From contig CAJFVJ010000003.1 of assembly GCA_904420445.1 (NCBI GenBank), forward strand, positions 615,998 to 679,997: DNA of 64,000 nucleotides, given 5' to 3'. The position numbers and the translations under genes were made by a program. The first letter of the stretch is position 1; each line of letters opens with the position of its first letter. Under the pieces are notes generated by a model. That model made no database searches. It was not told where the DNA came from and saw nothing but the letters and a program-made list of their open reading frames with translations. Origin of the DNA: Candidatus Adamsella avium. Lineage in GTDB: Bacteria > Cyanobacteriota > Vampirovibrionia > Gastranaerophilales > CAJFVJ01. Shown piece by piece: positions 292 through 46,510 of the stretch.

Positions 292-582
292 CTATACTCT
301 GACTCGGTCTATATCTATAACCATATCCTCAGATATATCTGAGGAATTCTTCAACAATACATAAGCCTTCAGAGCATCTACCGCAGCATGCCCGCCGGGT
401 CTGTCAAAAACATATTTTCTGACCATTCCGTCTTCACTGTCTTGTTCCTTAATTGAAGAACTATCAATTCCTTTTATATTATCAACATCAAATTTTCTCT
501 CTGAAATATCGCCTTTATAAATAACTCTTGCCTGTATTTTTCCTCCTCCGAAGGAAGTGTTGCCTACCGGTAAAATATTCAT
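292..582 (-). CDS. Small orphan protein with N-terminal SFGG motif
   Basis: A 96-residue protein of unknown function. The ATG at 582-580 is preceded by a good ribosome-binding site (AGAGGAG, spacing about 7), so the start is well supported. No membrane segment or signal peptide is visible; the body is hydrophilic with acidic patches (residues 40-50, 80-90). Residues 9-13 read TSFGG. The same Ser/Asn-Phe-x-Gly signature recurs near the N-terminus of at least five other unrelated proteins in this window (2101, 11968, 12962, 33716, 46068). No family recognised. Confidence 0.75.
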   Translation of the reverse strand: MNILPVGNTSFGGGKIQARVIYKGDISERKFDVDNIKGIDSSSIKEQDSEDGMVRKYVFDRPGGHAAVDALKAYVLLKNSSDISEDMVIDIDRVRV

Positions 583-684
583 AGTTTTTTCTCCTCTTAA
601 TAATTCTGCCTACAATTTCTTTTATCACCAAAATATGTACAAGGAAAGATAATATAAAATGGATTTATGGTATTTTTTAGAATA

Positions 685-693
685 TGCTATACT
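685..693 (+). promoter_or_regulatory. Extended -10 promoter of a leaderless transcript
   Basis: TGC followed by TATACT (688-693) is an extended -10 element. Normal spacing puts the transcription start at about 700, directly on the ATG at 701. No convincing -35 is visible. This supports the internal start for the WG-repeat protein. Confidence 0.5.
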
Positions 694-700
694 TATTCCC

Positions 701-1324
701 ATGCAAAAGGTTATTTTAATATCAGTTTTAATACTCAACATATTATTGCCGGTTGCTTTTGGTGAGCCACCCCAAACAATAATGAAACAGGCAACCAGAG
801 AACACTATATTGTAAAAAATAATGATAACAACAAATACGGCATTATTGATAAGTCAAATAAAATCATTATCCAACCGGTTTATGACGAAATTAAAACAGA
901 AGGAGAAACTTCTTATCTTCCCAAAAAGTATTATGAAAAAGTTATTTTTCGCACAAAATTAAACAATAAATACGGATTGGCTGATACGAACGGAAAAATT
1001 TTATACGAACCGCAATTTGACGAAATAAGCCGCCTTGGACATAATAATGTAACCAAACCCAGATATTTAAAAGTTAAAAAAAATAGCAAATACGCCTTAT
1101 TTGATATAAAAGAAAAAGAACTCAGCGATTTTATATTTGATGAAATCTCTCTTAATTCAATAGACGAAATTCAAGTTGTCAAAGACGGAAAAAAATATCT
1201 GCTCTATCCTGCAAAAGGAATTTTGAAGGGAGTAGGCATTGTCTTATTTGCTCCTGTTGCTTTGGTTTGCGGACTAATTCTTGCTCCTTTTGCGCTTATA
1301 TCCTTATTTTTCTCATCCCCATAA
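701..1324 (+). CDS. Secreted/membrane WG-repeat-like protein
   Basis: About 207 residues. An ATG 42 nt upstream (659) is also open, with a weak AAGGAAAG site. The ATG at 701 gives an immediate signal-peptide-like N-terminus (MQKVILISVLILNILLPVAFG) and sits where an extended -10 would start the RNA, so I prefer it. Three degenerate WG-type beta repeats follow, each about 45 residues. They show YGIIDKSNKIIIQPVYDEI-, YGLADTNGKILYEPQFDEI- and YALFD...FIFDEI-like cores, typical of the WG (KWG) repeat family of exported proteins of unknown function. The C-terminus is a hydrophobic segment of about 28 residues, probably a membrane anchor. Confidence 0.75.
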   Translation: MQKVILISVLILNILLPVAFGEPPQTIMKQATREHYIVKNNDNNKYGIIDKSNKIIIQPVYDEIKTEGETSYLPKKYYEKVIFRTKLNNKYGLADTNGKILYEPQFDEISRLGHNNVTKPRYLKVKKNSKYALFDIKEKELSDFIFDEISLNSIDEIQVVKDGKKYLLYPAKGILKGVGIVLFAPVALVCGLILAPFALISLFFSSP

Positions 1325-2100
1325 GAAATGAATTTTATCAACGCATGCTCCTGCTGTCAAAGCTGCAGCTTTTTTAGAGAGCATTTTCTTCTGTATAACA
1401 TGCTTTTCTTTCCTTACATTATTTAATTTTATTCAACAAAAAGCACAATGCACAAAGTTCCTCAAATATAGCGCATGCCTTTTAAGATATTAAGTTTAAA
1501 AAACAATTATTTTTGATTTCAAGAAATAGACTAACGATAATACAAAAATTGTTATTGTCTTGTTTTATAAGAAAATTATTATTATATATTCTATATATAT
1601 TTTCTGTTTAAAGCTTTAAAAAAACAAAAATAAAATATAATAAACCGTCATTATAAAATAAAAATGTATCAATTCATATATTTTTATGCCTTATTTTTTA
1701 ATATACTTGAAAATTTTTAATTTTTAAATATAGTTTTTTGATTTTAAAAATTAAAAACAAAATACTATATTTACATTAGGAAACAGAAGAAATATTAAGA
1801 ATTATAAAAATCTTTATAAAAATTTTATATCAAAAAAAATAAATACAAATTGCAAAAACTTATCATATTTTTTCAAAAAAAATAAAACTTTTTTCTGAAC
1901 TGATTTAAAATATTATTATTTTTCTTTAAACAATCACATTCTTTTTGAAAGTCATTTTTCCCCGTTCCAAAATTACCTGGCAATATTCATCCTTGAGGCT
2001 TTTTTTTAATAATATTAGTTGGTATATTTATTCTTTGTTGGAATAAAAAAAATAAACTCAAAAATTCATCTGGCGGAAAAAAAGGAAATTTAGTCTATCT
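1325..2100. other. 775-bp very AT-rich intergenic region
   Basis: No open frame of useful length, RNA gene or clear repeat is visible. Composition falls well below the neighbours, with long A and T runs especially at 1500-1900. A 14-bp perfect palindrome AAAGCTGCAGCTTT (1359-1372) followed by T residues lies just after the WG-repeat gene and could be a weak terminator. The last 100 bases before the gene at 2101 must hold its promoter, but no element stands out. Confidence 0.6.
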
Positions 2101-3825
2101 ATGTTAGGAATTCGGACAAACTACAATCTGGATACAAAAAGTAATGTAAAAAATACTCAGCCTTCTTTCAAAGGTGCTGAGATGATTGCAACAAATGCGT
2201 TTTCTTACCTGAAAGACAACCCGATGGTAACTACAGCGCTCATTGATACTGTTCTCTGCGACGTACCAAAAGCTGTACAGGATACGAAACAACGTAATCC
2301 GTTTGCCGGTATAGAAACAGCTTTCAGAGAATTCTCAGGCACCTTCAACAACTGTTTTCTCCCGGGGATACTCGGTGCAGGATTCGGCTTCCTTGCTTCA
2401 TCAGGTATAAACAAAGCCTTTAACGTAAAAGCCAATAAAATCTGGGCTGATACTGATACAATAGATGCCTTCACTGATTTATACAAAAAAAGCAACGGTG
2501 ACCAGAATGCATTTCTGCAAAACGTTCTCTCAAAAGTATCAGCAGGACTTGATTCCTCTCATAAAATCAGCGGAGAACAAGCTGACAACATAGCTGATGC
2601 ATTCAAAGGAATAATTGCCAAAACAGGCAATATTTCAAAAAAAGATCATACAACACTGGTAGCACAAATAGGAGAAGCTTTAGGAGGACACTGCGAAGAA
2701 ATACGCTTCAACGGAATTGATACAAACGTAGATAACTTCATCAACGACACAATCAATATTTCGCGTGCTTTTGCAAGCGACAAATTGAAAGTTGTCAAAG
2801 ACGGAGTCAAACAAATTGACAACACAAAACTCGACTCATTTGCTTCCGGTCTGAAAAATGTTGCAAAGACAAAAACAGCTCTTGCCTTTGCCGTTACAAT
2901 TCCGATAGCCGTTGCTACACACTACCTAAACAGGGCTCAAACCAAGAAACGTTCAGGAAAAGACGGAGCACCCATCTACAAAGACTTTTCAGATAAAGAT
3001 TACAAAAGAGAGCTTACTCCTCAGGAAAAGAAAAAACTCGGAGCTCAAAAAGTCCTGGCATCAGGCTCTCTTGCAGGGATAGCCCTTGCTGCAATAGGTC
3101 CTAAAAAACTATCTCAATTCGGAAAGACCATGCAATTTAGAAATTTCAGAACAAGCCTTGACCAGTGCAGAGTTGTCAGCACAGCTACATTTGCCAGCAG
3201 ATTTATGGGTGCAGCCGACTCTACCGAACTCGGACAGTCTTTTATAAGAGATGTATCAAGTTTCATGTTCTTCTATGTAACAGGCGAGTTCGTAAGCAAA
3301 CTTACTGCAAAATCGATGGAAAAACCCGGTTATGACCTTTTCAGACAGGTTATGGACAAACCGCAGGAAAATGACGGCATAATGAAAAAACTTGCCTACG
3401 TTTTCAGAGGCAACGAACTGAAAACCCACAGGGAAGTTCTTATCGAAGAAGCTATCAAAGCAGGCAAAAAACTTGATATTACGGATAAGGGAGCAATTAA
3501 CACCAAAAAACTCCTCGAATCTCTCCCGCAAGAAGCGCAAGCTTTTGCAAAAAAACGTCTTGGAGTACTAAACAAAGCACAGGCTGCAAGCATGGCATTC
3601 TCTGCTCTCGCCCTTGGCGTCGCAATCCCTCAGCTTCTTATTAAACTGACTGACATCAACGAAGCAAAAAGAAAAAGCAAAATGGAAGAACAACAACACG
3701 CTCAACAACCGCAGAAACAGGAACAAAATTCAACCGTAACCTACAAAAAATTCCTCAACAACGGTAACTTCGGTTCTTCTAAACCTCAGGAAGTTTTCAA
3801 CGCTTTTGTAAAAAATAATCAGTAG
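2101..3825 (+). CDS. Large orphan protein with several hydrophobic segments and SFKG motif
   Basis: 574 residues, no recognised family. The N-terminus is hydrophilic and carries SFKG at residues 22-25. Hydrophobic, glycine/alanine-rich segments occur near residues 85-105, 262-280, 317-335, 395-410 and 486-507, suggesting a membrane-associated protein. The C-terminal 50 residues are Gln/Lys-rich and probably disordered. The gene follows the AT-rich gap and is 18 bp upstream of the deaminase, so the two may be co-transcribed. The ribosome-binding site is weak (AAGGAAA about 14 nt upstream). Possibly lineage-specific; the function is unknown. Confidence 0.8.
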   Translation: MLGIRTNYNLDTKSNVKNTQPSFKGAEMIATNAFSYLKDNPMVTTALIDTVLCDVPKAVQDTKQRNPFAGIETAFREFSGTFNNCFLPGILGAGFGFLASSGINKAFNVKANKIWADTDTIDAFTDLYKKSNGDQNAFLQNVLSKVSAGLDSSHKISGEQADNIADAFKGIIAKTGNISKKDHTTLVAQIGEALGGHCEEIRFNGIDTNVDNFINDTINISRAFASDKLKVVKDGVKQIDNTKLDSFASGLKNVAKTKTALAFAVTIPIAVATHYLNRAQTKKRSGKDGAPIYKDFSDKDYKRELTPQEKKKLGAQKVLASGSLAGIALAAIGPKKLSQFGKTMQFRNFRTSLDQCRVVSTATFASRFMGAADSTELGQSFIRDVSSFMFFYVTGEFVSKLTAKSMEKPGYDLFRQVMDKPQENDGIMKKLAYVFRGNELKTHREVLIEEAIKAGKKLDITDKGAINTKKLLESLPQEAQAFAKKRLGVLNKAQAASMAFSALALGVAIPQLLIKLTDINEAKRKSKMEEQQHAQQPQKQEQNSTVTYKKFLNNGNFGSSKPQEVFNAFVKNNQ

Positions 3826-3843
3826 TAAATAAAAAGAGGGCTT

Positions 3844-4425
3844 ATGAAAAAAATACTCAAATATATGAGTTTTCATGCTGCGAAAAAAAATAATATTATA
3901 AGCAACACCTGCTTCTCTCAAGAAGAACTGAACAACGCAAAAAATATAATACTTGAACTCCAAAGAAAAACCTCCGAACAAATCGAAAACGGCTACGGAC
4001 CGTTTCTCGCTGCAATATATGACGATAAAAACAACCTCATAGCAAGCATGCCAAACACCGTTGTCAACGACTGCAACTGCCTGCACCACGCAGAAATAAA
4101 CACAATCAGCGCAGCACAAAAAGAACTGAACTCATACGACCTCTCAAAGTTTAACCTGAGCATCTACATCACAGCGGAACCATGTATCATGTGCGCAGGC
4201 GCAATCATGTGGTCAGGAATCAAAAAAGTCTTCTATGGCGTAAGCTCTAAAGACGTCGAAGAAATAACAGGCTTCGACGAAGGATATAAACCGGAATGGA
4301 TGCAAGAATTCAAAAAAAGAAACATTCTTGTCTGCGGAAATATCGAAGAAGAAATCGGCAAAAATGTTCTGAAAAACTATGTCAACACAGGCAAAACCAT
4401 CTATAAACCGGAAAGATTTATCTAA
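3844..4425 (+). CDS. Nucleoside/guanine deaminase-like zinc enzyme (CDA fold)
   Basis: 193 residues. The cytidine-deaminase-fold zinc site is complete: HAE at 82-84 (zinc ligand plus proton-shuttle Glu84) and PCIMC at 113-117 (two Cys ligands). The segment after the second motif (VFYGVSSKDVEEITGFDEGYKP) resembles bacterial guanine deaminases of the GuaD type more than TadA, but substrate cannot be fixed from sequence. About 40 extra N-terminal residues precede the usual core. An AGAGGG site sits 4 nt before the ATG. Likely cytosolic purine salvage or base deamination. Confidence 0.8.
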   Translation: MKKILKYMSFHAAKKNNIISNTCFSQEELNNAKNIILELQRKTSEQIENGYGPFLAAIYDDKNNLIASMPNTVVNDCNCLHHAEINTISAAQKELNSYDLSKFNLSIYITAEPCIMCAGAIMWSGIKKVFYGVSSKDVEEITGFDEGYKPEWMQEFKKRNILVCGNIEEEIGKNVLKNYVNTGKTIYKPERFI

Positions 4426-4519
4426 ACTCTATATCAAAAAATTAACATATTAATTATATTTATATATTTATTTTTTTACATGCTAAAATAAATCTCATAT
4501 TCGTTTTTTGATATAGAGT
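4426..4519. repeat. 94-bp element bounded by 16-bp perfect inverted repeats
   Basis: ACTCTATATCAAAAAA at 4426-4441 is repeated exactly in inverted orientation at 4504-4519. The element begins at the base after the deaminase stop codon and ends 6 bp before the next ATG. The 62-bp interior is AT-rich. ATCT occurs directly outside both ends (4420-4423 and 4521-4524), which could be a short target duplication or chance. It could be a MITE-like insertion or a long-range RNA hairpin over the start of the next gene. Confidence 0.7.
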
Positions 4520-4525
4520 CATCTG

Positions 4526-5662: not shown

Positions 5663-5731
5663 CAAACTAAATTAATAATATTTTGTGTATAGTATCATAG
5701 AGAAATACAAAAGAGAGAGGGGCAAAAAACA

Positions 5732-6829: not shown

Positions 6830-6868
6830 TACGTAATATATTCAATAAAATATAATCGAGAGAGGACA

Positions 6869-9507: not shown

Positions 9508-9562
9508 AGTGCACATCAAAAGTTATCCGTAAAAATATTTTTGTGATATATTTAAACCATAA

Positions 9563-9635
9563 GCCGATATAGCTCAGCTGGTAGAGCATTCGATTCGTAA
9601 TCGAAAGGTCGTGGGTTCGAACCCCATTATCGGCT
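9563..9635 (+). tRNA. tRNA-Thr (anticodon CGU)
   Basis: Acceptor stem 9563-9569/9628-9634, standard D-arm (TAGCTCAGCTGGTAGAGCA), and anticodon stem 9589-9593/9601-9605 with anticodon CGT at 9596-9598. The T-loop TTCGAAC is present. The body closely resembles other bacterial tRNA-Thr(CGU) genes. The discriminator is U and CCA is not encoded. A restriction-modification cassette begins 20 bp downstream on the opposite strand. Confidence 0.96.
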
Positions 9636-9654
9636 TATTTTGAAAAGTTAAAGC

Positions 9655-10179
9655 TTAGTTATCTACAGGCAAACCAAGTCTTTGCAAGGGAATATAATTA
9701 AAATAATAATCACATCCAACGCTGTGAATATAAGCTAAAACATCTTTATATTCGGGTTTCTTGAACCAATCATTAAGAATATAAATATATTCCACTTCAA
9801 AATTCAATGAAGCAAGCAGTCTTTTATATTGTTTCTTTTTAAAGTCGCATGTTTGAAGTTTTTCATCAACAGAACCGCCAACCTGCTGGTATTTACATTC
9901 GATAATATAAAAAGTATTATTTAAAATTACGTATATAGAGTCATCCGGTAACAATTTCTTTGACAGATAATCTTTCCAATTTACCTTATTTCTTTCTAAA
10001 AACTTATAAAGATCATATTTTACAAAAATCATACCAACTAATTTATCTTTATAAAAAACATTATTATCATTGTCTACTCTATAGTTTTTAACTTCATTTA
10101 GCAAAGTTTTTAAATCTGCTTTACTTTCAAATACCAGACCTGTTGTTGTATTGCCACCGCCAATCCCATTTTTAATCAT
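9655..10179 (-). CDS. Type II restriction endonuclease, PD-(D/E)xK fold
   Basis: 174 residues. A PD-(D/E)xK nuclease core is visible: Pro78-Asp79 ... Glu94-Cys95-Lys96 within IIECKYQQV, followed by GGSVDEKLQT, a stretch common in type II restriction enzymes. The N-terminus has GIGGGNTTTGLVFE, also typical of such enzymes. It is much shorter than the DpnII/MboI nuclease (about 290 residues), so GATC specificity should not be assumed. It overlaps the upstream adenine methylase by 8 bp and is the last gene of the three-gene operon. Identification as the nuclease rests on motif plus context. Confidence 0.8.
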   Translation of the reverse strand: MIKNGIGGGNTTTGLVFESKADLKTLLNEVKNYRVDNDNNVFYKDKLVGMIFVKYDLYKFLERNKVNWKDYLSKKLLPDDSIYVILNNTFYIIECKYQQVGGSVDEKLQTCDFKKKQYKRLLASLNFEVEYIYILNDWFKKPEYKDVLAYIHSVGCDYYFNYIPLQRLGLPVDN

Positions 10180-11071
10180 AATTTTTTACTAAAACCTCTG
10201 TAATTTTTCCTCTACCATTTGCATCTGCGTTAACTGCCCGAGAAGCCCATACTTTCTTAATTGTATATTTTGTATACAGTTTGTTGATAAATTCTGTATC
10301 AGAATTTGAAAGTAAAAAACTTACACCAATATTATCAAGCTCATCGCATAGCTCTTTGAGTTTAAATTGCATATCAACATCAAATCCGTCTTTTGTATAA
10401 GATGTAAAACTCGATGTTTTGCTCAATGGGGCATAGGGTGGATCCAAATATACAAAATCGCCCTTCTCAACTTTTGTCAAAATATCTGAAAAATCAGCAC
10501 ATTTTATTTCTGTTTGTTTTAATAGTTTTGAGCAGTTTCTTAAATTTATTTCATCAACAATTCTTGGATTTTCATAATTACCAAAAGGAACATTAAATTG
10601 ACCTTTAGAGTTTACTCTATATAAACCGTTAAAACAAGTTCTGTTAAGATATATAAAACGACTTGCTTTTTTAATATTGGAGAGTTTTTCATATTTTGAC
10701 GTCCTGTCCATATTCCGAATTTTCAGAAAATATTCTTTGGTTATTTTGTGTTTATTTAAATCAATAATAAGTTCATCAACACTATCACGAACCGTAGAAT
10801 ATAAATTCATAAGCTCTTCATTCTGGTCTGAAATATAAGCGTTATCTGGATGCAACTCAAAAAATAATGCACCGCCTCCTACAAACGGCTCAAAATATCT
10901 GTTATAAGATTTTGGCATATTTTTCAACAACTCGTGCATCAACTGCCGTTTACCGCCTACCCATTTAACAATAGGGTATGTTTTCTGTTCATTCTCTTCA
11001 AATTTTTCAGAACTGCATTTTGTTTTTTTTAAAACAGATTCAATTTTTACTTTTTTTACAGCTGTAGCCAT
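10172..11071 (-). CDS. D12-class (Dam/DpnM-like) DNA adenine-N6 methyltransferase
   Basis: 299 residues. Class-alpha order: SAM-binding motifs first (VKWVGGKRQL near residue 35, FEPFVGGGALFF near 60), then catalytic DPPY (DPPYAPLSKTSSF near 210). The central region with SRFIYLNRTCFNGLYR is the D12 target-recognition region seen in Dam, DpnM and MboI.M1. It methylates adenine in double-stranded DNA to protect the host. The start codon overlaps the upstream stop by one base (TAATG), implying translational coupling with the second methyltransferase. Confidence 0.93.
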   Translation of the reverse strand: MATAVKKVKIESVLKKTKCSSEKFEENEQKTYPIVKWVGGKRQLMHELLKNMPKSYNRYFEPFVGGGALFFELHPDNAYISDQNEELMNLYSTVRDSVDELIIDLNKHKITKEYFLKIRNMDRTSKYEKLSNIKKASRFIYLNRTCFNGLYRVNSKGQFNVPFGNYENPRIVDEINLRNCSKLLKQTEIKCADFSDILTKVEKGDFVYLDPPYAPLSKTSSFTSYTKDGFDVDMQFKLKELCDELDNIGVSFLLSNSDTEFINKLYTKYTIKKVWASRAVNADANGRGKITEVLVKNYD

Positions 11072-11865
11072 TATACTTCTTTCTTTGATAAGAGTTGTTC
11101 AAATCTTTTTACAGACAGCGACAAGTATTCCTGTTCTATATCAATACCTATAAATTTTCTCCCTAACATTAATGCCATTATACCAGTAGTTGAACTTCCT
11201 GTGAATGGATCCAAAATTAAATCATCCCTGTTGGTTGATGATAGAATTATTCGTCTTAATAATTCTAAAGGCTTCTGGGTAGGATGCTTTCCAAAAACTT
11301 TTTCCGAAGTTTTTGGGGTTCCAATAGCCCATACTGAACGCATTTGTTTCTTCGGCTTTTTGAGAAAATCTTCTTCCCAACTTCCGTTTTTCATTACTTC
11401 ATAGTTAAAAATATGTTTTGAATTATTATCTTTTTTTGCCCATATAATAGTTTCATGACTCGCAGTAAAATATCTACAGCTCATATTTGGAGAAGCATTA
11501 GGCTTAAACCAGCAAATATCATTCAAAATCTTAAAACCAGATTGTTGAAGAACAAATCCACAAGCATAAATTGAATGATATGTACCTGATATCCATATTG
11601 TTCCATTTGGTTTTAATACTCTTTTGCATGCATTTATCCATTTTTTATGGAATTCAAAATCTTCATCTATTCCAAGACTTTTATCCCAACTTCCTTTATT
11701 TACTGAAACAATTTTCCCGGAATGGCAGGTTATTCCATCATTTGAAAGTTTATAAGGAGGATCTGCAAAGATCATATCTACAGATTCCTTCTCTAAATTA
11801 TCCAAAATTTCAAGGTTATTGCCACAAAATAGCTGGACATTACCTTTTTCATAATATCTTTGCAT
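11071..11865 (-). CDS. Class-beta DNA methyltransferase (DpnA-like)
   Basis: 264 residues. The catalytic motif comes first (FADPPYKLSNDG near residue 33) and the SAM-binding motif near the C-terminus (LDPFTGSSTTGIMALMLGRKF). This is the class-beta arrangement of N6-adenine/N4-cytosine methyltransferases. HPTQKPLELLRR is also conserved in that group. First gene of the R-M operon. Two methyltransferases of different class with one nuclease is the layout of DpnII-like systems and of systems for asymmetric sites; which applies here is open. Confidence 0.92.
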   Translation of the reverse strand: MQRYYEKGNVQLFCGNNLEILDNLEKESVDMIFADPPYKLSNDGITCHSGKIVSVNKGSWDKSLGIDEDFEFHKKWINACKRVLKPNGTIWISGTYHSIYACGFVLQQSGFKILNDICWFKPNASPNMSCRYFTASHETIIWAKKDNNSKHIFNYEVMKNGSWEEDFLKKPKKQMRSVWAIGTPKTSEKVFGKHPTQKPLELLRRIILSSTNRDDLILDPFTGSSTTGIMALMLGRKFIGIDIEQEYLSLSVKRFEQLLSKKEV

Positions 11866-11967: not shown

Positions 11968-12903
11968 ATGAACATCTTATTTCCTCAAATAAAAATTCCC
12001 ATTTCTCAGGCGCCTCTCGCAGACAAAAGCAGGAACTCCCGTTCTTTATCTTTTGGCGGCTGGTCTGACATTTTTCTTCCAAGCAAGCGTTTGCAGAGCT
12101 GCAGAAATGTCGAAAAATTTTTGAAGACAGTCAAAAAAGTCACCCCTAATGAATACAAAAAACTTTCTGACGAACAACTCAAAGACTTTTTTTATTATAA
12201 TCTTGATGATAATCTGCAAATTGCCGTTGAAGATAATCTTGCCGTTGCTCTGCCTCTCAAAGATTTTCTGGATAGAAAATACGGAAAAGACAAATATATC
12301 TTTGTATCAATAGGTTCATCACCATCCCCAATAGGAAGAATATTCGAATTTAGCGGGGTTGAAACAAAGTATCTGCCGATATCAGACTTGATGTATGCTG
12401 ATAAATATCAAGATATAGTCAAAAGCGCCGGATTTGAGGATTATGAAAAATTTTTGAAAGAGCAGGGAATATCAAAAAAGAATCTGGAAAGACATAAAAA
12501 AACTTTTGTATTCTATGATTACACATCCTCAGGACATTCATTGAGTTTATTTAAAGATTTGATGATGTATCATTTAAACCTGCCTGAAGATAAGGTCGAT
12601 TTCCGCAGTTTGAATGAAGATCTTTATTATTGCTGTGCTAAAAAAGAAAAACCTCTCAACCGGTTTGATGAAGAAAGCTCGAATAAAGATTTCGCTGATG
12701 ATTATATAATGCAGTATCTGGCTGATTCTCATGCAGAATATTTCGGAGGAATAAGGCATCTTAGTTGCAGAATGCTGTCAAATATCGCAGAATGTAAGAT
12801 TTATTCAAATGATACATCAAAAATTTACAACCTGTACGTTATGCACAGACTCGAAGAGATGGGAATATTGAAAAACAACCCGAAGAATAGAAAATCTTTG
12901 TAG
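11968..12903 (+). CDS. Motif protein, tandem paralogue A (possible phosphoribosyltransferase-like fold)
   Basis: 311 residues from ATG 11968 (a TTG six bases earlier is also open). It is clearly paralogous to the next gene: shared blocks include VALPLKDFLD, the KYGKDKYIFVSIG region, FSGVETKYLPISDL and KKTFVFYDYTSSGHSL. The N-terminal 28 residues are Ser/Arg-rich and end in SFGG (residues 28-31). The FYDYTSSGHSL block resembles a PRPP-binding loop (hydrophobic strand, acidic residue, T/S-S-G), but has one acidic residue instead of two. A PRTase-like fold is only a suggestion. No signal peptide or membrane segment. Confidence 0.7.
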   Translation: MNILFPQIKIPISQAPLADKSRNSRSLSFGGWSDIFLPSKRLQSCRNVEKFLKTVKKVTPNEYKKLSDEQLKDFFYYNLDDNLQIAVEDNLAVALPLKDFLDRKYGKDKYIFVSIGSSPSPIGRIFEFSGVETKYLPISDLMYADKYQDIVKSAGFEDYEKFLKEQGISKKNLERHKKTFVFYDYTSSGHSLSLFKDLMMYHLNLPEDKVDFRSLNEDLYYCCAKKEKPLNRFDEESSNKDFADDYIMQYLADSHAEYFGGIRHLSCRMLSNIAECKIYSNDTSKIYNLYVMHRLEEMGILKNNPKNRKSL

Positions 12904-12961: not shown

Positions 12962-13912
12962 ATGAAAATTTTCTTCAATTCAGCGATAAAAAGTACTTTT
13001 TATCCATATTATTCAAGCCAAAAGACGAAATTTTCCAATACCTCATTTTGCGGATTAACAACGGATAAGTTTGAACGAAGCAAAGAGGTATCGAATTATC
13101 AAAAAGCAAAAAATTTGCTGTCTTCGACAAAAAAAATTACCCCTCTTGAATATAGAAAACTTACACCTGCCCAAATTAGTGCGGTAAACAACTATGAAAC
13201 TAAAGAAGCAGTTGATGATAACATTGCAGTAGCGCTGCCGCTCAAAGATTTTTTGGATAAAAAATACGGAAAAGATAAATATGTCTTTGTCTCTATCGGG
13301 ACATCACCGGCACCTCTCGGCAGAGTGTTTGAATTCAGCGGTGTTGAAACGAAATATCTTCCTATTTCAGACTTGAGGTATTCAACAGGGTATCGGGATG
13401 TTGTTGAGGCTGAATATTTTTATGATTATGAAAAATTTTTGGAAGAGCAGGGAATATCCAAGAAGAATATTGAAGACAGCAAAAAAACTTTTGTATTCTA
13501 TGATTTTACAGCATCCGGAAAAACTCTGAGAATTTTCAGGGATTTAATGTTGAAACACCTTGGGCTGCCTGAAAAACAGACAGATTTCAGGAGTTTGAAC
13601 GAGGATATTTTAGCTTTGAGAGATGAAATAAGAAAAATTAAACCTGATGTAATAACTGACCGGAAATTGTTAAAAAAATTCAACATCAAAGATCCGAGTT
13701 TTGCAAATTCTTATATCGGAAATTATCTTGCTTTTTCCGAGGCATCTAAATACGGAGGAATTGCTCATCTTGACTATAGAAACTTTTATCAACTTAATGA
13801 TGCAAAGAATTTTGAGAGTAAATCAGCAAAAATTTATAATCTGATTTTGATTGATGAACTTTCAAAAAGAGGTCAGCTTAAGCAAGTTTCTGCAAACTCA
13901 CATTGTTTGTAG
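12962..13912 (+). CDS. Motif protein, tandem paralogue B
   Basis: 316 residues, paralogous to the preceding gene over almost the whole length. Blocks DKYVFVSIGTSPAPLGR, FEFSGVETKYLPISDL and KTFVFYDFTASGKTL align without large gaps. SFCG falls at residues 28-31, the same distance from the start as SFGG in its twin. The upstream sequences are also similar (GTTCAAAAA...CTT...GGC...TTATAT), consistent with tandem duplication including the promoter. TATAAT lies at 12939-12944. The 3' end overlaps the convergent gene by 35 bp. Function unknown. Confidence 0.72.
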   Translation: MKIFFNSAIKSTFYPYYSSQKTKFSNTSFCGLTTDKFERSKEVSNYQKAKNLLSSTKKITPLEYRKLTPAQISAVNNYETKEAVDDNIAVALPLKDFLDKKYGKDKYVFVSIGTSPAPLGRVFEFSGVETKYLPISDLRYSTGYRDVVEAEYFYDYEKFLEEQGISKKNIEDSKKTFVFYDFTASGKTLRIFRDLMLKHLGLPEKQTDFRSLNEDILALRDEIRKIKPDVITDRKLLKKFNIKDPSFANSYIGNYLAFSEASKYGGIAHLDYRNFYQLNDAKNFESKSAKIYNLILIDELSKRGQLKQVSANSHCL

Positions 13913-26573: not shown

Positions 26574-28853
26574 TTATTTTAAAAAGAATGTATTTTCACT
26601 CAACATAAAAAGTTTGATTTTGATTTGTCTGAAAATCCATCTTATTATTCTTTTCGTTTTTCTCTTTGCTCTGAAAATATACGGTAACCCCTTAGGCATT
26701 TGCTTTGTTTCAATCAAAATATTTAATAATCTTGATTCAACAGATTGTTTAAATTTATTTTTTCTCAAAGCTAATGCATCACACAACCAGTTCAAAGATT
26801 TTGATGCTTCTTTATTAAGAATATTATTAACTACGTTGTAGTCAACTTCTGTATTTATAGCAGCAAATATATCTTCAAGACTTGATATATTTGAAAAAAG
26901 TCTATCTGACATTCTTAACATTGAGAATAAAGAACGAAACCTACTATTGCCTCGAGAATTACAAAAAGAAATAAACTGTTTTTCAAAGATAATAGAAAAA
27001 CAAGTGCCATGATATGAATCAGTTACTACAAATCTTGCATTTTTTATTGTATATAACCAATCTTCAACAGACTCATTTTTATTCATTTTTATTACACTAC
27101 AGCTATATTTTTCAGCTAACTTGGCTACAGTTTCTTCAATATTTTTATTATTATCTAGAACATATAGTGCAATATAATTTTTCTTTTCTAATTCTGAATT
27201 ATTTATTAATTGCTCATATTGAGTCTTATCAAGCAAAAACACAGGATCCAAAATACATTCTGCATCTGTATCAAATTCCTTTTTGCAAACATCAACACTT
27301 TCAAGTTCCCTTACTGACACAGCATCAAATTGTTTCATATAATACTCTATAGCTGTTTTTACATCATCTGATTGTTCAAATTTCTCAAAAATCATACTTG
27401 CAGAACAAGCTATTTTCTTTTTATCATTTTTTACAAAATCCAAAAAATATAAATACTGAAGATAATAATTATATGACCAAACTTGATCAGAACCCACAAT
27501 AAAAGTATCAAAAGTGTCATTTAAGTTTGATAAATCTTTTTTATTTTGACATAACTCTGTGAGACTAAAATATTTATGAACAAAATCAATTTTACCTTTA
27601 CAACAAGGAAACTCATATCTATTTGTCCATTGCTTAGCTCTGTAGTTAATAACTTTTATTGTATAGCCTAAATTTTTCAACAACTCTTGAAGAGCATAAC
27701 ATGTAAGAATTGCGCCATAGTTCCAAGTTGCCCAATAATTCATAATACCGCAGTCATATCTGTCAAACAGATACATATTAACTAGCTGTTTTAACGAATA
27801 TTTATCTAAATTTTCAAAAAATGCTTTTCTTTTTGGATGAACTCGATGAGGAGCATAAAGATTTCGATTACCTAATATTGCATATTTCAGAGGAACTTCC
27901 TTTATTACCTTAAAATTATTTTTTATATCATTCCATAAATCTCTTGATTTACAATTATTAACAAGAACTAAGGATGTTCCCTTCCCATCATTCAAACTCT
28001 TATCAAAATTCTCTATCCCCCAAAAATCGGCAATAGTAAAATCTCCCACTCTTTGAGTTGAACAGAATTTGCAACCGGTACAATTTTCTCTTAATGAAAT
28101 ATTATTCAAAAACAACTGCATATAACTGTCATCAACCTGAACAAAGCTATAAGTAGTAGTAGTAGTAGTAGTAGTATTTGTAAGAGTTGGTGACCATCCT
28201 CTTACTTTATCTCTGAAATTTACACAAACAACTTTTTCATCATCATAATGCAATAATTCTTTCAAATATTTTTTGTAAACCTTCGGAGAAGGAACCCCAT
28301 GGCATAAAATATCCACGGTCAACAGTTTTTCATAATCTTTATTCAAAAAAGAATACAATCCAGCTACCTGACATGGGGTACCTGAAAATAAAACAAAATT
28401 ATCAGCATCCAATAAATTTCTTATTTCTTTATATACAACCCCTATATCGCTTTGAACATACTTTGAGCCTCTAAGTTTGCTTAAATCACTTTTTGAATTA
28501 ATAATAATATGCCTAGCCCTTAATTCATCCGTATCAAAAGTACAACCGCAAATATATCCGTTTTGGCTTAAAATATAATTTGCAAGAATACTAAAAGCAC
28601 CACCTGAAGAACTGACTTTTCTTGTTTCATCATCTGCCATAGCTGCATAGCAGTCTGGTTTTTTGAAGTTATCATTTGTTTTATTAAGAATAGGACAAAC
28701 TTTTTTGCATAACCCGCAATCAACACATTTTTCTTCATCTATGAACGGATATAAAAATCCTTCACTATTTTCTTTCATAGAAATAGCATTTTTAGGACAT
28801 ATATTATAACATGCAGAACAACCGCAACATTCAGAATGATTAAGAATAAACAT
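26574..28853 (-). CDS. Ferredoxin-FrhB-polysaccharide pyruvyl transferase fusion
   Basis: 759 residues, three parts. Residues 1-60 hold two 4Fe-4S motifs (CCGCSACYNICPKNAI and CVDCGLCKKVCP). Residues about 70-350 are the F420 hydrogenase/dehydrogenase beta-subunit (FrhB) domain with SSSGGAFS and FSGTPCQVAGL, plus GCKFC/STQRVGDF. From about 365, CGIMNYWATWNYGAILTCYAL starts a polysaccharide pyruvyl transferase (WcaK/CsaB) domain, with VGSDQVW and SYHGTCFSI. It runs opposite to its neighbours. The protein probably adds or reduces a group on glycan; the electron-transfer partner is unknown. The AGT microsatellite (28152-28175) encodes an in-frame Thr8 run at about residues 227-234. Confidence 0.82.
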   Translation of the reverse strand: MFILNHSECCGCSACYNICPKNAISMKENSEGFLYPFIDEEKCVDCGLCKKVCPILNKTNDNFKKPDCYAAMADDETRKVSSSGGAFSILANYILSQNGYICGCTFDTDELRARHIIINSKSDLSKLRGSKYVQSDIGVVYKEIRNLLDADNFVLFSGTPCQVAGLYSFLNKDYEKLLTVDILCHGVPSPKVYKKYLKELLHYDDEKVVCVNFRDKVRGWSPTLTNTTTTTTTTYSFVQVDDSYMQLFLNNISLRENCTGCKFCSTQRVGDFTIADFWGIENFDKSLNDGKGTSLVLVNNCKSRDLWNDIKNNFKVIKEVPLKYAILGNRNLYAPHRVHPKRKAFFENLDKYSLKQLVNMYLFDRYDCGIMNYWATWNYGAILTCYALQELLKNLGYTIKVINYRAKQWTNRYEFPCCKGKIDFVHKYFSLTELCQNKKDLSNLNDTFDTFIVGSDQVWSYNYYLQYLYFLDFVKNDKKKIACSASMIFEKFEQSDDVKTAIEYYMKQFDAVSVRELESVDVCKKEFDTDAECILDPVFLLDKTQYEQLINNSELEKKNYIALYVLDNNKNIEETVAKLAEKYSCSVIKMNKNESVEDWLYTIKNARFVVTDSYHGTCFSIIFEKQFISFCNSRGNSRFRSLFSMLRMSDRLFSNISSLEDIFAAINTEVDYNVVNNILNKEASKSLNWLCDALALRKNKFKQSVESRLLNILIETKQMPKGLPYIFRAKRKTKRIIRWIFRQIKIKLFMLSENTFFLK
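28152..28175. repeat. (AGT)8 trinucleotide tract in coding frame
   Basis: Eight perfect AGT units on the plus strand, read as ACT on the minus strand, giving a run of eight Thr inside the FrhB domain. Slippage would change length by whole codons. Confidence 0.95.
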
Positions 28854-33685: not shown

Positions 33686-33717
33686 ATAAAAGGGAACCAA
33701 ATGGTTCCCTTTTATTT
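33684..33717. terminator. Bidirectional terminator, 16-bp perfect stem
   Basis: AAATAAAAGGGAACCA, a 2-nt loop, then TGGTTCCCTTTTATTT. It serves the HdeD gene and the convergent gene ending at 33716, whose stop codon lies at its right end. Confidence 0.93.
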
Positions 33718-34210
33718 AGCTTCTTATCCAAAAATGTTCCAGCATCTCTTTTACACTCTTTGTTTGTCCCTTTGTTGTCCGGGTAATTTCACCGTCAGCA
33801 ATTTTTTGAGCAGCCTCAAGAACCGCATCGGAATTTGTTGAATACTCTGTCGTTGCAAGCTTGCTTGCAGCAGCATCTTTTTCTGTATTCAAACCATTTA
33901 AATTATTCCATGCATTAAACATTTTCCACTTGCCCATATCAAAAGTCTTGCCGGTTGTCATATAATCTTTATTTCCGATTTTATACAAATGATCATCTCT
34001 TGTGGCAAAAAGGACTTTTGCCCTGTCTTCTCTGTTTTCAGGGTCAGAAATAATCACAACATCAACACCCATATCATCCAAATCACTCACAGCAGATGAA
34101 TACTCAATTTCCTGCTCAAGTTTTTCGGCAAGTTTTGATGCAGTCTTTCCCATTCCTTCAGTAGACACCAAAACACGACCAAAATTTAAACTGTTATTCG
34201 ACACATTCAT
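33716..34210 (-). CDS. Orphan protein with N-terminal NFGR motif
   Basis: 164 residues, unknown function. The start MNVSNNSLNFGR has Phe10-Gly11 in a Ser/Asn context like the other motif proteins, and MNVSN is shared with the protein at 38879. The body is soluble, with a Lys/Glu-rich N-terminal helix (residues about 20-40) and a VDVVIISDPENREDR strand-loop. It ends on the shared terminator. AGAGG lies about 14 nt before the ATG. Confidence 0.72.
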   Translation of the reverse strand: MNVSNNSLNFGRVLVSTEGMGKTASKLAEKLEQEIEYSSAVSDLDDMGVDVVIISDPENREDRAKVLFATRDDHLYKIGNKDYMTTGKTFDMGKWKMFNAWNNLNGLNTEKDAAASKLATTEYSTNSDAVLEAAQKIADGEITRTTKGQTKSVKEMLEHFWIRS

Positions 34211-41127: not shown

Positions 41128-41236
41128 AAATGCCCTGATTAACAAATTGTAACATTCTTAAAATACTTTACTATCAAGACTTTTGACATGCAAAGGAAAC
41201 ATAAATACTAAACAAATACATGCATTAAACAAATAT

Positions 41237-41265
41237 TTGTATAAATTTCAATTTTGAATTATAAT
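41237..41265 (+). promoter_or_regulatory. Sigma-70-type promoter of yggS-sepF
   Basis: TTGTAT (41237-41242), 17-bp spacer, perfect TATAAT (41260-41265). Expected start about 41272, leaving a leader of about 60 nt. A second candidate, TTGACA at 41183-41188 with TACTAA 17 bp on, lies upstream. Confidence 0.5.
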
Positions 41266-41330
41266 ATTAAATATGACATAATTGTACATTGAATTTTAAA
41301 TTGAGCTGGAAGAAAAAACGGTAGAAGAAA

Positions 41331-41981: not shown

Positions 41982-42004
41982 TAATGACAGAGGGAGGAAG
42001 AACA

Positions 42005-42511
42005 TTGTCAGGATTAGTAGATAAAATCAAGTCTTTTGTTGGTTTGGTTTCAGGGTTTGAAGAATCTGATGAAACAGAAGATAAAATGATTGAGGAGCTA
42101 TATAAAGCAGGAGGGGGATATCCTGTGAAGGATAATTTGGCTTTGGCACCTCACCATGAATATTCAAATCCTCAGGGAAATTTGAAAGTTGTACACCATC
42201 CGAATGCTCGTGCTTACGAAGTTATGGTTATTGAACCGAGATCATTCGAAGAATCACTGGAAATTGTTAACAATCTGAGAGATAAAAAGTCAGCTATTTT
42301 GAATTTGCATCTTTTGGATAGAGAACAATCTCAAAGAATCGTTGATTTCTTGTCAGGTGCTACTCATGCAATCGACGGCAATCAGCAAAAAATCGGAGAA
42401 GGTGTTTTCATCTTCACTCCGAGCAACGTATCTATTTCTGCAGAAACAGAAAAAGCTCGTGTTATCAGAGATGCTTTCTGGAACACAGGTTCTATGACTG
42501 CTACAAAATAG
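42005..42511 (+). CDS. sepF: Cell division protein SepF
   Basis: About 168 residues from TTG 42005, chosen because AGGGAGGAAG (41991-42000) sits a few bases before it. The resulting MSGLVDKIKSFVGL is the expected membrane-targeting amphipathic helix; starting at ATG 41984 or TTG 41978 would add a short tail before the helix. The SepF (DUF552) domain starts near 65: VMVIEPRSFEESLEIV, KSAILNLHLLD, QRIVDFLSGATHAIDG and FIFTPSNV. It anchors and bundles FtsZ at the septum. Followed by a terminator. Confidence 0.9.
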   Translation: MSGLVDKIKSFVGLVSGFEESDETEDKMIEELYKAGGGYPVKDNLALAPHHEYSNPQGNLKVVHHPNARAYEVMVIEPRSFEESLEIVNNLRDKKSAILNLHLLDREQSQRIVDFLSGATHAIDGNQQKIGEGVFIFTPSNVSISAETEKARVIRDAFWNTGSMTATK

Positions 42512-42544
42512 ATTTATTTTGGGATTATATAAGAAAAATTTTTG

Positions 42545-42572
42545 AAGACGGTATTCTGCCGTCTTTTTTTTA
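42545..42572 (+). terminator. Rho-independent terminator after sepF
   Basis: AGACGGTA / TGCCGTCT stem of eight pairs (one G-U) with TTC loop, then eight or more T. Confidence 0.88.
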
Positions 42573-42587
42573 TTTCAAAAAATATAG

Positions 42588-42593
42588 TATAAT
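42588..42593 (+). promoter_or_regulatory. -10 element of a near-leaderless transcript
   Basis: A perfect TATAAT ends 8 bp before the ATG at 42602, so the expected RNA start is at about 42600, giving a leader of 0-2 nt. There is no room for a Shine-Dalgarno site. The -35 position is a T-run belonging to the sepF terminator. Confidence 0.5.
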
Positions 42594-42601
42594 TTAGTAT
42601 T

Positions 42602-43426
42602 ATGAAAACACTCTTCAAAAATATATGGCTGAGAATAGAAGAACCTCTTGTATTTCATCCTCTGAGAAAAACTCTCGCAGAGCCGACAGAGAAAATCAAA
42701 CACAAAATAGAAAACCTCTACATAAAATCAGGTAATTCAACGCTGAATGCCTGGTATCTTCATCCGAAAGGAAACAATCCTGTTGTCATCTACTGCCATG
42801 GACAGGGAGAAAACATCTCGTCGATGCAGCAATCTTATGACTTCATGGAGGAAAGAGGAATAGGCTTTCTTGCAGTCGACTACACTGGACATGGCAACAG
42901 CACAGGGCATCCTACAGAAGAGAAGATTTATTCAGACATTGACACCTGCGTCGAATATCTGAAGAACGAAAAACATTTTGATATGTCAAAAATCATAATC
43001 TGGGGACGTTCAATGGGCGGAGCCATTGCTATCGAAGCATCAACAAGACATTCTTTCCTCGGAACAATTGTGGAAAGCTCTTTTACAAACATCAAAGATG
43101 CGGGCGTAAGCTTGTCTTACAGCAATCACGAAGCCATGGGACCGATTAGGCGTATCCTTTTCAGAAATGCCCATTATATGCCCGTAACTCAAAACTTTGA
43201 CTCCTATTCAAAAATAGACAGAGTAAAATCTCCCATGCTAATAATCCACTCAAAACAGGATGAGCTGATTAACTTTGAACAGGCTCAAAAAAATGCCAGG
43301 AAAGCTGATTTTGCAAAGTTTGTACTTCTTGATGAAGGAGGTCACTATTATAGCAGCTGGGCATTTGATGAAATAGAAAAATTTATCAATCAACTAAGTC
43401 GGGTCGAAGTTTCGCAGCCCCTTTGA
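42602..43426 (+). CDS. Alpha/beta hydrolase (S33/BEM46-like)
   Basis: 274 residues. YCHGQGENISS (oxyanion region), nucleophile Ser in WGRSMGGAIAI, acid MLIIHSKQDELI and the C-terminal His in DEGGHYYSSW. Serine-hydrolase fold; it may act on esters or amides, with unknown substrate. It has no ribosome-binding site and a promoter almost at the ATG. It ends 41 bp inside the convergent chorismate mutase gene. Confidence 0.87.
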   Translation: MKTLFKNIWLRIEEPLVFHPLRKTLAEPTEKIKHKIENLYIKSGNSTLNAWYLHPKGNNPVVIYCHGQGENISSMQQSYDFMEERGIGFLAVDYTGHGNSTGHPTEEKIYSDIDTCVEYLKNEKHFDMSKIIIWGRSMGGAIAIEASTRHSFLGTIVESSFTNIKDAGVSLSYSNHEAMGPIRRILFRNAHYMPVTQNFDSYSKIDRVKSPMLIIHSKQDELINFEQAQKNARKADFAKFVLLDEGGHYYSSWAFDEIEKFINQLSRVEVSQPL

Positions 43427-43763
43427 GATAAGCATGGTGAACCTCTTCCTGAGATAAAGAAGTATTGACGACCATCAAAACTCTTATGCATTTTTTCAAG
43501 CTCTCAGGAACGCCTAATTCATTTGTACAAATCATCGGAACGTGATTCCACCCGAGATTTTTGCGTGCAAATTTTGCAGGAAAAGCAGCATCAATATCTT
43601 TGGTCAGAGAAAATATAACATGAGAAATATCTTTCGCATCGATTTTGTTTTTCTCTAATAAAACCCCTAACAGCTCAACAGTTGCCGCTTCTATCTCAAC
43701 TTCAGAATTCGATTCAATGGTAATGGCACCTCTTACTCCACGAGACACAAGATTTTCAGACAT
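43386..43763 (-). CDS. aroH: Chorismate mutase, AroH type
   Basis: 125 residues, the normal length of the AroH trimer-type enzyme. RGVRGAITIESNS at the N-terminus, the ELLGVLLEKN block, FSLTKDIDAAFPAKFAR, WNHVPMICTNELGVP and IRVLMVVNT are all present; Arg7-equivalent and the Arg after the VPMI block contact chorismate. Converts chorismate to prephenate for Phe/Tyr. AAAGGGG before ATG. The 3' end overlaps the convergent hydrolase by 41 bp. Confidence 0.94.
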   Translation of the reverse strand: MSENLVSRGVRGAITIESNSEVEIEAATVELLGVLLEKNKIDAKDISHVIFSLTKDIDAAFPAKFARKNLGWNHVPMICTNELGVPESLKKCIRVLMVVNTSLSQEEVHHAYLKGAAKLRPDLVD

Positions 43764-43825
43764 ATTTCCCCTTTCGTTTTTGATGTGTAATAATACTAAT
43801 TAAATCATGGAAATAAAATAAAAAA

Positions 43826-45817
43826 ATGGCAAAAGAATTTAAAGTAGTTTCAAAATATGATCCTGCAGGCGACCAGCCAAAGGCAATCAAAGAGCTCTCA
43901 GAGGGCATAAAAAGAGGCGACGACACCCAGATTCTTCTCGGTGTAACAGGCTCAGGAAAAACCTATACCATTGCCAAGGTTATCGAACAGGTAAAGATGC
44001 CGACTCTTGTTATCGCACACAACAAAACCCTCGCCGCACAGCTATACGGTGAATTTCGAGAGCTTTTTCCAGATAACGCCGTTGAATACTTCATCTCTTA
44101 CTATGACTACTACCAGCCTGAAGCCTATATCCCGAGAACTGATACCTTCATCGAAAAATCTGCAACCATAAACGATGAAATAGACCGTCTGCGCCACAAT
44201 ACAACAAGAAGCCTCTACGAACGACGTGATGTAATTGTCGTCGCAAGCGTAAGCTGTATATACGGTTTGGGGCTGCCTGAAAATTATTTCAAAGGGGCGT
44301 TGAAAATCAAAGAAGGCGACATAATAAACAGACATGACCTGCTCTCAAAACTTGTGGAAGCACGTTATTCAAGAAATGACTTAGAACTCAAAAGAGGAAC
44401 GTTCAGAGCAAGAGGTGATGTAATAGAACTCATGCCTGCCTATGAAAACATCATCACAAGAATTTCTCTCTGGGGCGATGAAATCGAAAAAATTACCAAA
44501 ATTGATGCAGTAAGCGGCGAAGTCCTCGAAATTTGCGACGAAACAATCGTCTTCCCTGCCGTTCATTACATCTCATCAGAAAACGATAAAGAAGAAACTC
44601 TGAAAATGATACGAGAGGAACTCCAAAACCGCCTTGTTGAACTCAAAAATCAGGGCAAACTCGTTGAAGCACAACGCCTTGACCAGAGAACTCGCTACGA
44701 TATGGAAATGATTAAGGAAATGGGTTATTGCTCTGGGATAGAAAACTATTCAAGAATCCTCGAAAGAAGAGCCCCCGGAACTCCTCCCGCTACCCTGCTT
44801 GATTATTTCAAAGGTGATTTTCTTGTTGTGGTCGATGAATCACACGTTACTCTCCCTCAGCTCAAGGGGATGTACAACGGAGACAGAGCGAGAAAAAACA
44901 CACTCGTTGAATACGGATTCAGGCTTCCATGTGCCGTTGATAACAGACCGCTTACTTTTGAAGAATTTTTTGAAAAAGTAAAACAAAAAGTCTACGTTTC
45001 TGCAACGCCAGGAGAATTTGAACAAGAACACGCCCAGAATACGGTAGAACAAATCATCAGACCGACAGGTCTTCTTGACCCTGAAATATCGGTAAGACCA
45101 ATCAAAAATCAGGTCGATGACCTTCTCTCCGAAATAAAAATAAGAGAAAAACTAAAAGAAAGAGTCCTAATAACAACTCTTACAAAGAAAATGTCAGAAG
45201 ACCTGACTGAATACTTCAACCAGATGGGCGTAAGAGTCAGATATCTCCACAGCGAAATTCAATCAATAGAACGTGTGGAAATCCTGCGTGACCTGCGTCT
45301 TGGAGAATTTGATGTCCTCGTAGGCGTAAACCTTCTGAGAGAAGGGCTTGATTTGCCGGAAGTCAGTCTTGTAGCCATTATGGACGCTGATAAAGAAGGA
45401 TTCCTGCGCTCTGAAACAAGCCTTATACAAACAATCGGAAGAGCCGCAAGAAATGCCTGCGGGAAAGTTATTATGTATGCAGACAGAATAACAGACAGCA
45501 TGGATAAAGCCATCACAGAAACGAACAGAAGGCGGGAACTCCAGATGGCATTCAATAAAGAACACAACATAACCCCCAAAACAATCATAAAACCGGTCAC
45601 AGAAAATCTTCTCGAACTCGTCAACAGCTATCGAAACATCGAAGATATTGTGGCTCACCAAATGGCAGATATGAATGTCGAAATGAAAGACCTTCCGAAA
45701 GTTATAGACAAACTCGAAAAAGAAATGCATAAAGCTGCCAAACTGCTAGACTTTGAGCAAGCAGCCGAAATAAGGGATAAACTCAAAAAACTGCGTGAAC
45801 TGAATAAAATGAGATAA
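43826..45817 (+). CDS. uvrB: UvrABC excinuclease subunit B
   Basis: 663 residues, full length. Walker [15 protein letters not shown] at about 39, beta-hairpin region [16 protein letters not shown]-like [10 protein letters not shown], helicase motifs VSATPGEFE and QTIGRAARN, and a UVR domain at the C-terminus ([21 protein letters not shown]). It scans DNA with UvrA and recruits UvrC in nucleotide excision repair. No good ribosome-binding site is seen before the ATG. Stands alone. Confidence 0.97.
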
Positions 45818-45833
45818 ATCTCATTTATCTTCC

Positions 45834-46075
45834 GTCATTCTGAGCCCGCAGGGCGAAGAATCCCTTTGTACGAAAAGATATTTCGCTTATGCTCAATATG
45901 ACTCGTTAATTCATAACTAACTACAAAATCAGATTTTTTCTTGAAACTCTGTGGAGCATAGCAACTTTTCAGCGTTTCAGAATAAAATTTCGAAATTTTA
46001 TTTCTGTTGCATTTTTTCTTTTTGCCCGCAACCAGAAGAAAGAAATAAAGAAAATTTCAAACTGCGTTCAGAGTG
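45834..46075. repeat. Copy of the dispersed intergenic repeat
   Basis: Starts GTCATTCTGAGCCCGCAGGG and contains the GAAACTCTG...CAGCGTTTC module (45943-45978) and the CTAACTACAAAATCAG phrase of the 38.4-kb repeat. The strip is non-coding and ends at the small convergent gene. Confidence 0.8.
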
Positions 46076-46337
46076 ACTTTTCCACCTTGCGGACGTCTAT
46101 ACCTCTGTTTGCAAGGAAAGACTTTAGAACTTCATCATATTCATCAGGAGTTTTATAAGTAATGGTAATATCCTTCCCTTCAATCAAATCTTCATCAGAG
46201 CCTATATTATCCGATTGCTCAACAGGTATACCTATTTCCGATAAAGCATATCCAGTATTCATCGCAACAGAAAACTTCTCAACAGAAAGCATCTTGGCAT
46301 TTCTTATTTCAAAAGCAGAACCAAAAGATATTGTCAT
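46068..46337 (-). CDS. Small orphan protein starting MTISFGS
   Basis: About 89 residues from the ATG at 46337, 13 codons inside the longest frame. GGAG lies 10 nt before it, and the start then gives MTISFGSAFE, matching the N-terminal Ser-Phe-Gly motif of other proteins here. The longer frame (from 46376) would bury this motif. It is soluble and acidic with a VEKSL tail. No family recognised. Confidence 0.6.
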   Translation of the reverse strand: MTISFGSAFEIRNAKMLSVEKFSVAMNTGYALSEIGIPVEQSDNIGSDEDLIEGKDITITYKTPDEYDEVLKSFLANRGIDVRKVEKSL

Positions 46338-46510
46338 AGCCGTGTTTCTCCATATCCATTCCGACATAAAGTCCATTTATGTTATTGATAAAAAATCAAA
46401 AAAACTCTTTTTGAATAATATGTTAACTTTTGTAATTTTTTCGAGAAAACTTTCAATTTAATAGAGTATATATTTTTTATATATATAAGGAAATATATAG
46501 GCACAAGAAA

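Follow-up and report, generated by a model that had tools for sequence, protein, structure and literature searches.

An N-terminal F-x-G/R tag on unlike proteins of the Gastranaerophilales, a candidate export signal for a second flagellar-type secretion set

The signals of type III secretion systems (T3SSs) are notorious for having no recognisable motif, and a lineage with a visible one would therefore make recognition testable. A short conserved marker on otherwise unlike proteins is known from type VI secretion (the MIX motif), and in type III export the cytoplasmic domain of FlhA/SctV is the substrate-docking part of the gate. For Pseudomonas syringae, N-terminal rules for T3SS substrates have been drawn up, namely that position 3 or 4 is aliphatic or proline, that residues 1-12 include no acidic one and that serine exceeds 10% of residues 1-50 (PMC3338616). 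In Chlamydia trachomatis, GlgA, GlgB, GlgX, GlgP and MalQ carry T3SS signals (PMC4829429), and GlgA is secreted (PMC3722199). In the Gastranaerophilales, an order of gut cyanobacteria that do not photosynthesise, most genomes have a flagellar gene subset that is insufficient for a flagellum (Soo et al., 2014; PMC4040986). Here we examine a 64,000-nucleotide stretch of one member of this order, Candidatus Adamsella avium (hereafter the window; G000:C3:615998-679997, in the 2.1-Mb genome G000), in which a short motif recurs at the N-termini of unlike proteins. The motif is the distal end of a longer tag, which is conserved across the order and which, in the interpretation we tentatively put first, may be an export signal.

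The first-pass annotation of the window had reported a signature, [SN]-F-[GKC]-[GRS], near the start of six proteins, and their translations confirmed all six motif positions exactly:

292..582 (-), motif codons 544-555: tagged protein of 96 amino acids, MNILPVGNT-SFGG (motif at residues 10-13)
2101..3825 (+), motif 2164-2175: tagged protein of 574 amino acids, SFKG at residues 22-25, family present in 59/60 relatives
11968..12903 (+), motif 12049-12060: tagged protein of 311 amino acids, SFGG at residues 28-31, paralogue of 12962
12962..13912 (+), motif 13043-13054: tagged protein of 316 amino acids, SFCG at residues 28-31, paralogue of 11968
33716..34210 (-), motif 34175-34186: tagged protein of 164 amino acids, NFGR at residues 9-12
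46068..46337 (-), motif 46317-46328: tagged protein of 89 amino acids from the inner ATG, SFGS at residues 4-7

The numbering of the last protein is from the inner ATG; use of the outer ATG (46376) gives 102 amino acids. None of the six matched a Pfam or NCBIfam family, and a structure search with the 12962 protein gave no significant PDB fold match. A guess that the 11968/12962 pair are phosphoribosyltransferases is thus unsupported by Pfam, NCBIfam or PDB fold matches.

Enrichment was assessed in 40 stretches of 20 kb from G000 together with the window (approximately 41% of the genome), genes being predicted by a simple script using codon usage and the ribosome site. The first-pass pattern, [SN]F[GKC][GRS] scored in residues 3-40, was present in 17 of 468 genes, compared with 3.1 in shuffled sequences (maximum 11) and with 2.6 expected from interior stretches of the 360 proteins of sufficient length. 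With the window left out the count was 17 of 775 genes against 4.7 (maximum 13 in 500 shuffles), and the held-out batch (400 kb) on its own gave a suggestive 6 against 2.1 (maximum 8). A scan of gapped triplets with no preset motif found SF.G and V.F.G enriched in a list dominated by signal-peptide and membrane patterns. The string DT[VI]SF was weakly enriched, a second recurrent string spotted by eye, D-x-F-E-K/R-S, was not, and a DNA-level search for the exact motif with fixed spacing had zero matches because the spacing of the motif is variable.

The signature as originally drawn proved to be real but too narrow: its core loosens to F-x-[G/R/A/S], and the tag also comprises an aliphatic third or fourth residue, an acid-poor start and a variable polar linker. 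The whole consists of an M-x-[I/V/L] start with few acidic residues, a variable polar tail, and then hydrophobic-[STN]-F-x-[G/R/A/S] before the fold. The extreme N-terminus reads M-[K/R/N/x]-[I/V/L] and the disordered linker spans 0 to approximately 60 residues, the motif adjoining the folded domain at a highly variable distance from Met1. For counting, a fuller tag was defined on the first batch by its start (I, V or L at position 3 or 4, no D or E in the first 8 residues, not hydrophobic) and its core ([STN]F[GKRSTAQ][GRAS] in residues 3-60), and the tagged set was filtered against hydrophobic N-termini. Outside the window, 21 of 126 start-positive soluble proteins of the G000 sample carried this core, compared with 75 of 2265 interiors (3.3%; p=8e-9), a pooled figure that includes the first batch, used to refine the pattern; shuffling the N-termini of the same 126 proteins gave a mean of 7.0 and a maximum of 15 in 1000 shuffles. 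Separately, the core was found in 14/67 start-positive proteins of the first batch, in 7/59 of the held-out batch (3.9% of interiors, p=0.01) and in 5/17 of the window, and by extrapolation several tens of G000 proteins would carry the strict tag.

Sixty relatives within the order were searched, with a class outgroup (f8) and sampled members of the phylum for comparison. Among start-positive proteins the refined tag was found in 5/32 in family f7, 4/13 in f3 and f5 combined, 1/19 in f4 and 1/64 in f2, against interior backgrounds of 2.3-4.9% across the sampled sets, and it was not enriched in the outgroups (f8, 1/47; phylum, 0/14). In f2 the strict pattern shows no enrichment, the core being variable there (F-x-R, KFTG, AFQG). 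Could the resemblance be due to chance and paralogy? The motif is short, some listed matches (the ClpX zinc finger, ribosomal L20, type IV pilins) are accidental, the SFKA of FliK in G000 was taken as chance because the FliK-like protein of a relative lacks it, and the held-out batch alone is suggestive for the narrower pattern. Nevertheless, the motif is not confined to the 11968/12962 paralogues, and chance is already contradicted by the pooled p value and by retention of the motif in N-termini that cannot be aligned. We regard it as highly improbable.

Conservation of the motif across divergent homologue families, rather than any count, is the strongest evidence for the tag, and it bears out the suggestion that the motif might be lineage-wide. 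In N-termini too divergent to align, hardly anything else is retained. In the family of the 2101 protein, [STNAQ]F-x-G lies within residues 2-60 of 25 of 35 homologous frames (shuffles: mean 2.2, maximum 7) and nearly all of the remainder carry something close to it, for example KFTG, RFRG or YFSG. Aligned homologues of the 11968/12962 pair have invariant M1 and I3 and mostly keep an F-x-G-like element (TFGG, AFEG, NFGQ, SFRG, SFGS). The GT5 (starch-synthase-like) paralogues, of 640-1060 amino acids, have N-termini of approximately 37-65 residues that are unalignable, yet all 26 of 26 have [STN]F-x-[G/H] at the start of the domain (ISFAG, LSFTG, ITFTG and ISFGH are examples), whereas shuffles give a mean of 2.0 and a maximum of 7; in an alignment of 12 sequences M1 and F66 are invariant, the phenylalanine occupying one of the few invariant columns in the whole protein. 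Tagged GH77 paralogues keep F-x-R (SFGR, SFER, TFRR, VFQR), and in 14 sequences with 25-45% identity to the first M1, F12 and R14 are invariant, whereas untagged GH77 paralogues begin directly at the domain, without the motif. Both kinds of GH77 coexist within the order and in some cases within one genome. Since the serine of the motif is encoded by TCN and AGY codons alike, it is the protein and not the DNA that is conserved. Other Gastranaerophilales with named genomes, from the gut and the environment, have further tagged families. As the first-pass annotation had supposed, a standard signal peptide does not explain the motif, the GT5 and GH77 tails being polar even with no filter applied.

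Structural models bear on two further explanations. One is that F-x-G/R is an ordinary structural N-terminal cap that evolved independently in each fold, and the GH77 model lends it something: residues 1-11 are disordered and F12 takes part in a predicted beta bridge at the fold's edge, with R14 invariant. In the AlphaFold2 (AF2) model of the 12962 protein, by contrast, residues 1-36, motif included, have pLDDT <50, and a predicted alpha/beta fold begins only at about residue 39, most of the domain scoring 80-98. The core moreover precedes unrelated folds and membrane-type proteins, a common extreme N-terminus accompanies it, and untagged GH77 paralogues do without it, all of which makes a mere cap improbable. 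The other explanation is that the tail is a leader cleaved at or near S-F-x-G by a lineage-specific peptidase, which would free the domain behind it. The position of the motif just ahead of the fold, its variable distance from Met1 and the transit-peptide-like composition of the tail (polar, acid-poor) would suit such processing, but there is no peptidase candidate, some proteins have two motifs (L107 and L128 are examples) and the motif is partly packed in the GH77 model; we give this reading little credence.

The tagged proteins with assignable domains comprise two GH77 proteins, a GT5, a GH13/CBM48 protein, an AAA+M41 protease-like protein, a DEAD+DSHCT helicase, a RelA/SpoT-like protein and a TPR protein, and for most others no family could be assigned. 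In the stretch L011:4026-17924 (G000:C3:504026-517924), approximately nine tagged genes, those of PARP-like proteins (L011:11207/12040, similarity below the cut-off) and of the tagged GT5 among them, are clustered in what looks like an island of tagged proteins. Kinase-like and cysteine-protease-like labels for L011:14534 and L016:5447 were dropped, no family or PDB match supporting them. Elsewhere, the tagged L002:2472 (+) has a hydrophobic, lipoprotein-like segment (LSLTACNGG) after the tag, which can thus stand ahead of a membrane segment.

A shared handling step, as the first-pass annotation had proposed, is the natural reading of a tag common to such proteins; the nature of that step has the standing of a candidate. 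It could be docking in the cytosol, the tag binding its carriers to one scaffold, compartment or complex with no export at all, and the partner might even be the soluble FlhA-C protein described below, acting apart from a secretion channel. A set that holds glucan enzymes (GT5, GH77, GH13/CBM48) beside RNA-helicase-like and RelA/SpoT-like proteins would suit docking, as would a short linear motif ahead of the fold, disordered in the 12962 model, and the coexistence of tagged and untagged GH77. On the other hand, no shell or scaffold protein was identified, although no search was aimed at shell genes, and a glycogen-storage body is unlikely in the family to which G000 belongs. In this family, f1 (G000, G001 and G002), GlgC had no match above the cut-off, unlike in most other families of the order, and in G000 and G001, genomes of the genus itself, the tagged GT5 is the sole GT5 and no untagged glycogen synthase was found; the tagged GT5 is therefore without an obvious ADP-glucose supply of its own. 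This fits an enzyme using another's sugar nucleotide better than it fits a storage body, although it is not proof, and the lack of GlgC also disfavours simple targeting to glycogen granules in f1. Many other genomes of the order keep untagged canonical copies of glucan enzymes. Cytosolic docking is the main rival to export, possible but in our judgement unlikely.

A candidate export machine is present in the same genomes. A PF00771 search found FlhA in 60/60 relatives, and FliP is likewise present in 60/60. Full-length FlhA is mostly present in two copies in f1 and f3-f7 and in one copy in f2 and G016, and the distribution of FliP is parallel (FliP-1 and FliP-2 mostly in f1 and f3-f7, FliP-2 alone in f2 and G016). 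No flagellin was found in 38/38 f2 genomes or in G016, which keep only the second set (FlhA-2/FliP-2) with 1-4 rod-type matches, whereas flagellin is present in the two-gate families. Against TIGR01398, the flagellar FlhA equivalog (cut-off 772 bits), FlhA-1 scores 857 and FlhA-2 scores 677 in G000 and 701 in f2; against TIGR01399, the injectisome SctV equivalog (cut-off 692 bits), FlhA-2 scores 580-586, also below. The neighbours of FlhA-2 are FliE, FliF, a protein with no assigned family and FliH in f2, and rod genes and FliI in flagellated families. The locations are:

G000:C1:36844-38817 and C3:593842-594417: second, divergent flagellar-type T3SS set
L139:5158-11136: second T3SS set, f2 example
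L019:3538-5019 = G000:C1:53538-55019: soluble FlhA-C, 493 amino acids, by FHIPEP and structure match

We infer that the flagellar gene subset noted by Soo et al. (2014) is this second T3SS and that it was kept for a different function. The titles and abstracts of the literature searched yielded no paper on a second T3SS in Gastranaerophilales.

The soluble FlhA-C protein consists of an extra N-terminal domain and the FlhA/SctV cytoplasmic domain, the membrane half being absent. It matches FHIPEP positions 321-655 (4e-52) and solved FlhA C-domains (3mix, 3e-26), and a soluble frame of approximately 500 amino acids is present in 60/60 genomes. In the class outgroup f8 and the sampled phylum members it was not found, full-length FlhA alone being present there. 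The best 80 named matches in the GTDB collection are from Gastranaerophilales or from loosely labelled gut and environmental genomes, the closest (97% identical) being Candidatus Gastranaerophilales bacterium BRZ_CV__bin38, and the protein is apparently confined to the order. Directly downstream lies a GH77 gene in 23/30 loci (29 of the 30 from f2), and wherever its start could be placed this GH77 is the tagged form.

The start rules for T3SS substrates separate the tails clearly from background and from untagged paralogues. An aliphatic residue occupies position 3 in 96% of GT5 and 93% of tagged GH77 proteins, compared with 10% of untagged GH77 and 24% of background; D and E are absent from the first 12 residues in 77%, 79%, 14% and 28%, respectively, and so not universally in the tagged groups; and S, T, N and Q make up 40% of residues 2-30 in GT5 and 29% in tagged GH77, against 25% in background. 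Docking alone leaves such an extreme N-terminus unexplained. Our current working hypothesis is that the tag is an export signal of the second T3SS, a reading to which, from sequence comparison, we give somewhat less than an even chance and which we rank first because of the start rules, the Chlamydia precedent and the GlgC/GT5 pattern. The motif would then be the distal part of a targeting tag used throughout the Gastranaerophilales, its extreme N-terminus engaging the export gate and its F-x-G element binding to a dedicated receptor or chaperone; soluble FlhA-C is a candidate for that role. The machine would be a flagellum-derived, non-flagellar T3SS, present in all 60 genomes searched. Taken to its full extent, as an order-wide pathway with its own substrate code and detached receptor, sending dozens of proteins per cell, glucan-building enzymes and possible effectors among them, to the outside or into a host cell, the proposal is appreciably more doubtful.

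Several points weigh against export. The start rules are predictive but not absolutely required even in P. syringae (PMC3338616), and no known T3SS chaperone, needle or translocon was identified in the analysis. All three elements, the tag, the second T3SS set and soluble FlhA-C, are confined to a single clade, and their co-occurrence may thus reflect one event. The canonical axial proteins of G000 (FlgD, FlgE, FlgB/C, FliE) are without the tag, which therefore is not a general T3SS signal, and in GH77 part of the motif may be structural, its phenylalanine lying in a beta bridge. Lastly, the DSHCT helicase, RelA/SpoT-like and AAA+M41 protease-like carriers look like intracellular enzymes.

Two other features of the window may be mentioned:

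9655-11865 (-): probable restriction-modification cassette of three adjacent genes beside tRNA-Thr (9562-9636), encoding a PD-(D/E)XK-like protein, a D12-class adenine methyltransferase and an N4/N6 DNA methylase
26574-28853 (-): ferredoxin/FrhB-like domain fused to a polysaccharide pyruvyl transferase domain, with a run of eight threonines (TNTTTTTTTTYS), possibly an intragenic repeat tract

The literature searched contained no description of the tag, which looks like an address label not described before. If it is an export signal, common human and animal gut bacteria that are seen as simple fermenters would own a secretion machine whose substrate code can be read, their secreted proteins could be listed from sequence alone, and the incomplete flagellar gene subset in non-flagellated members (PMC4040986) would be explained. 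Were it a code for docking in the cytosol instead, the cells would have an organising principle that has not been described. On either reading the tag offers a way into many proteins whose function is unknown.

The resemblance to described systems is closest in P. syringae, whose T3SS signals, like the tag, have an aliphatic third or fourth residue, a first stretch of 12 residues free of acidic ones and a polar, non-Sec character, and are found on unrelated proteins. The Gastranaerophilales tag differs in adding a recognisable F-x-[G/R/A/S] at the end of the tail, and its putative machine is a divergent flagellar-type set rather than an identified injectisome, export being a prediction. The MIX marker is likened to the tag by its description. 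As in Chlamydia, GlgA-, GlgB- and MalQ-type enzymes (here GT5, GH13 and GH77) have tails compatible with type III export, although Chlamydia belongs to another phylum and the Gastranaerophilales enzymes are divergent paralogues known here from their genes. Finally, soluble FlhA-C shares its cytoplasmic domain with FlhA/SctV, from which it differs in being soluble, in lacking the membrane half and in possessing an extra N-terminal domain.

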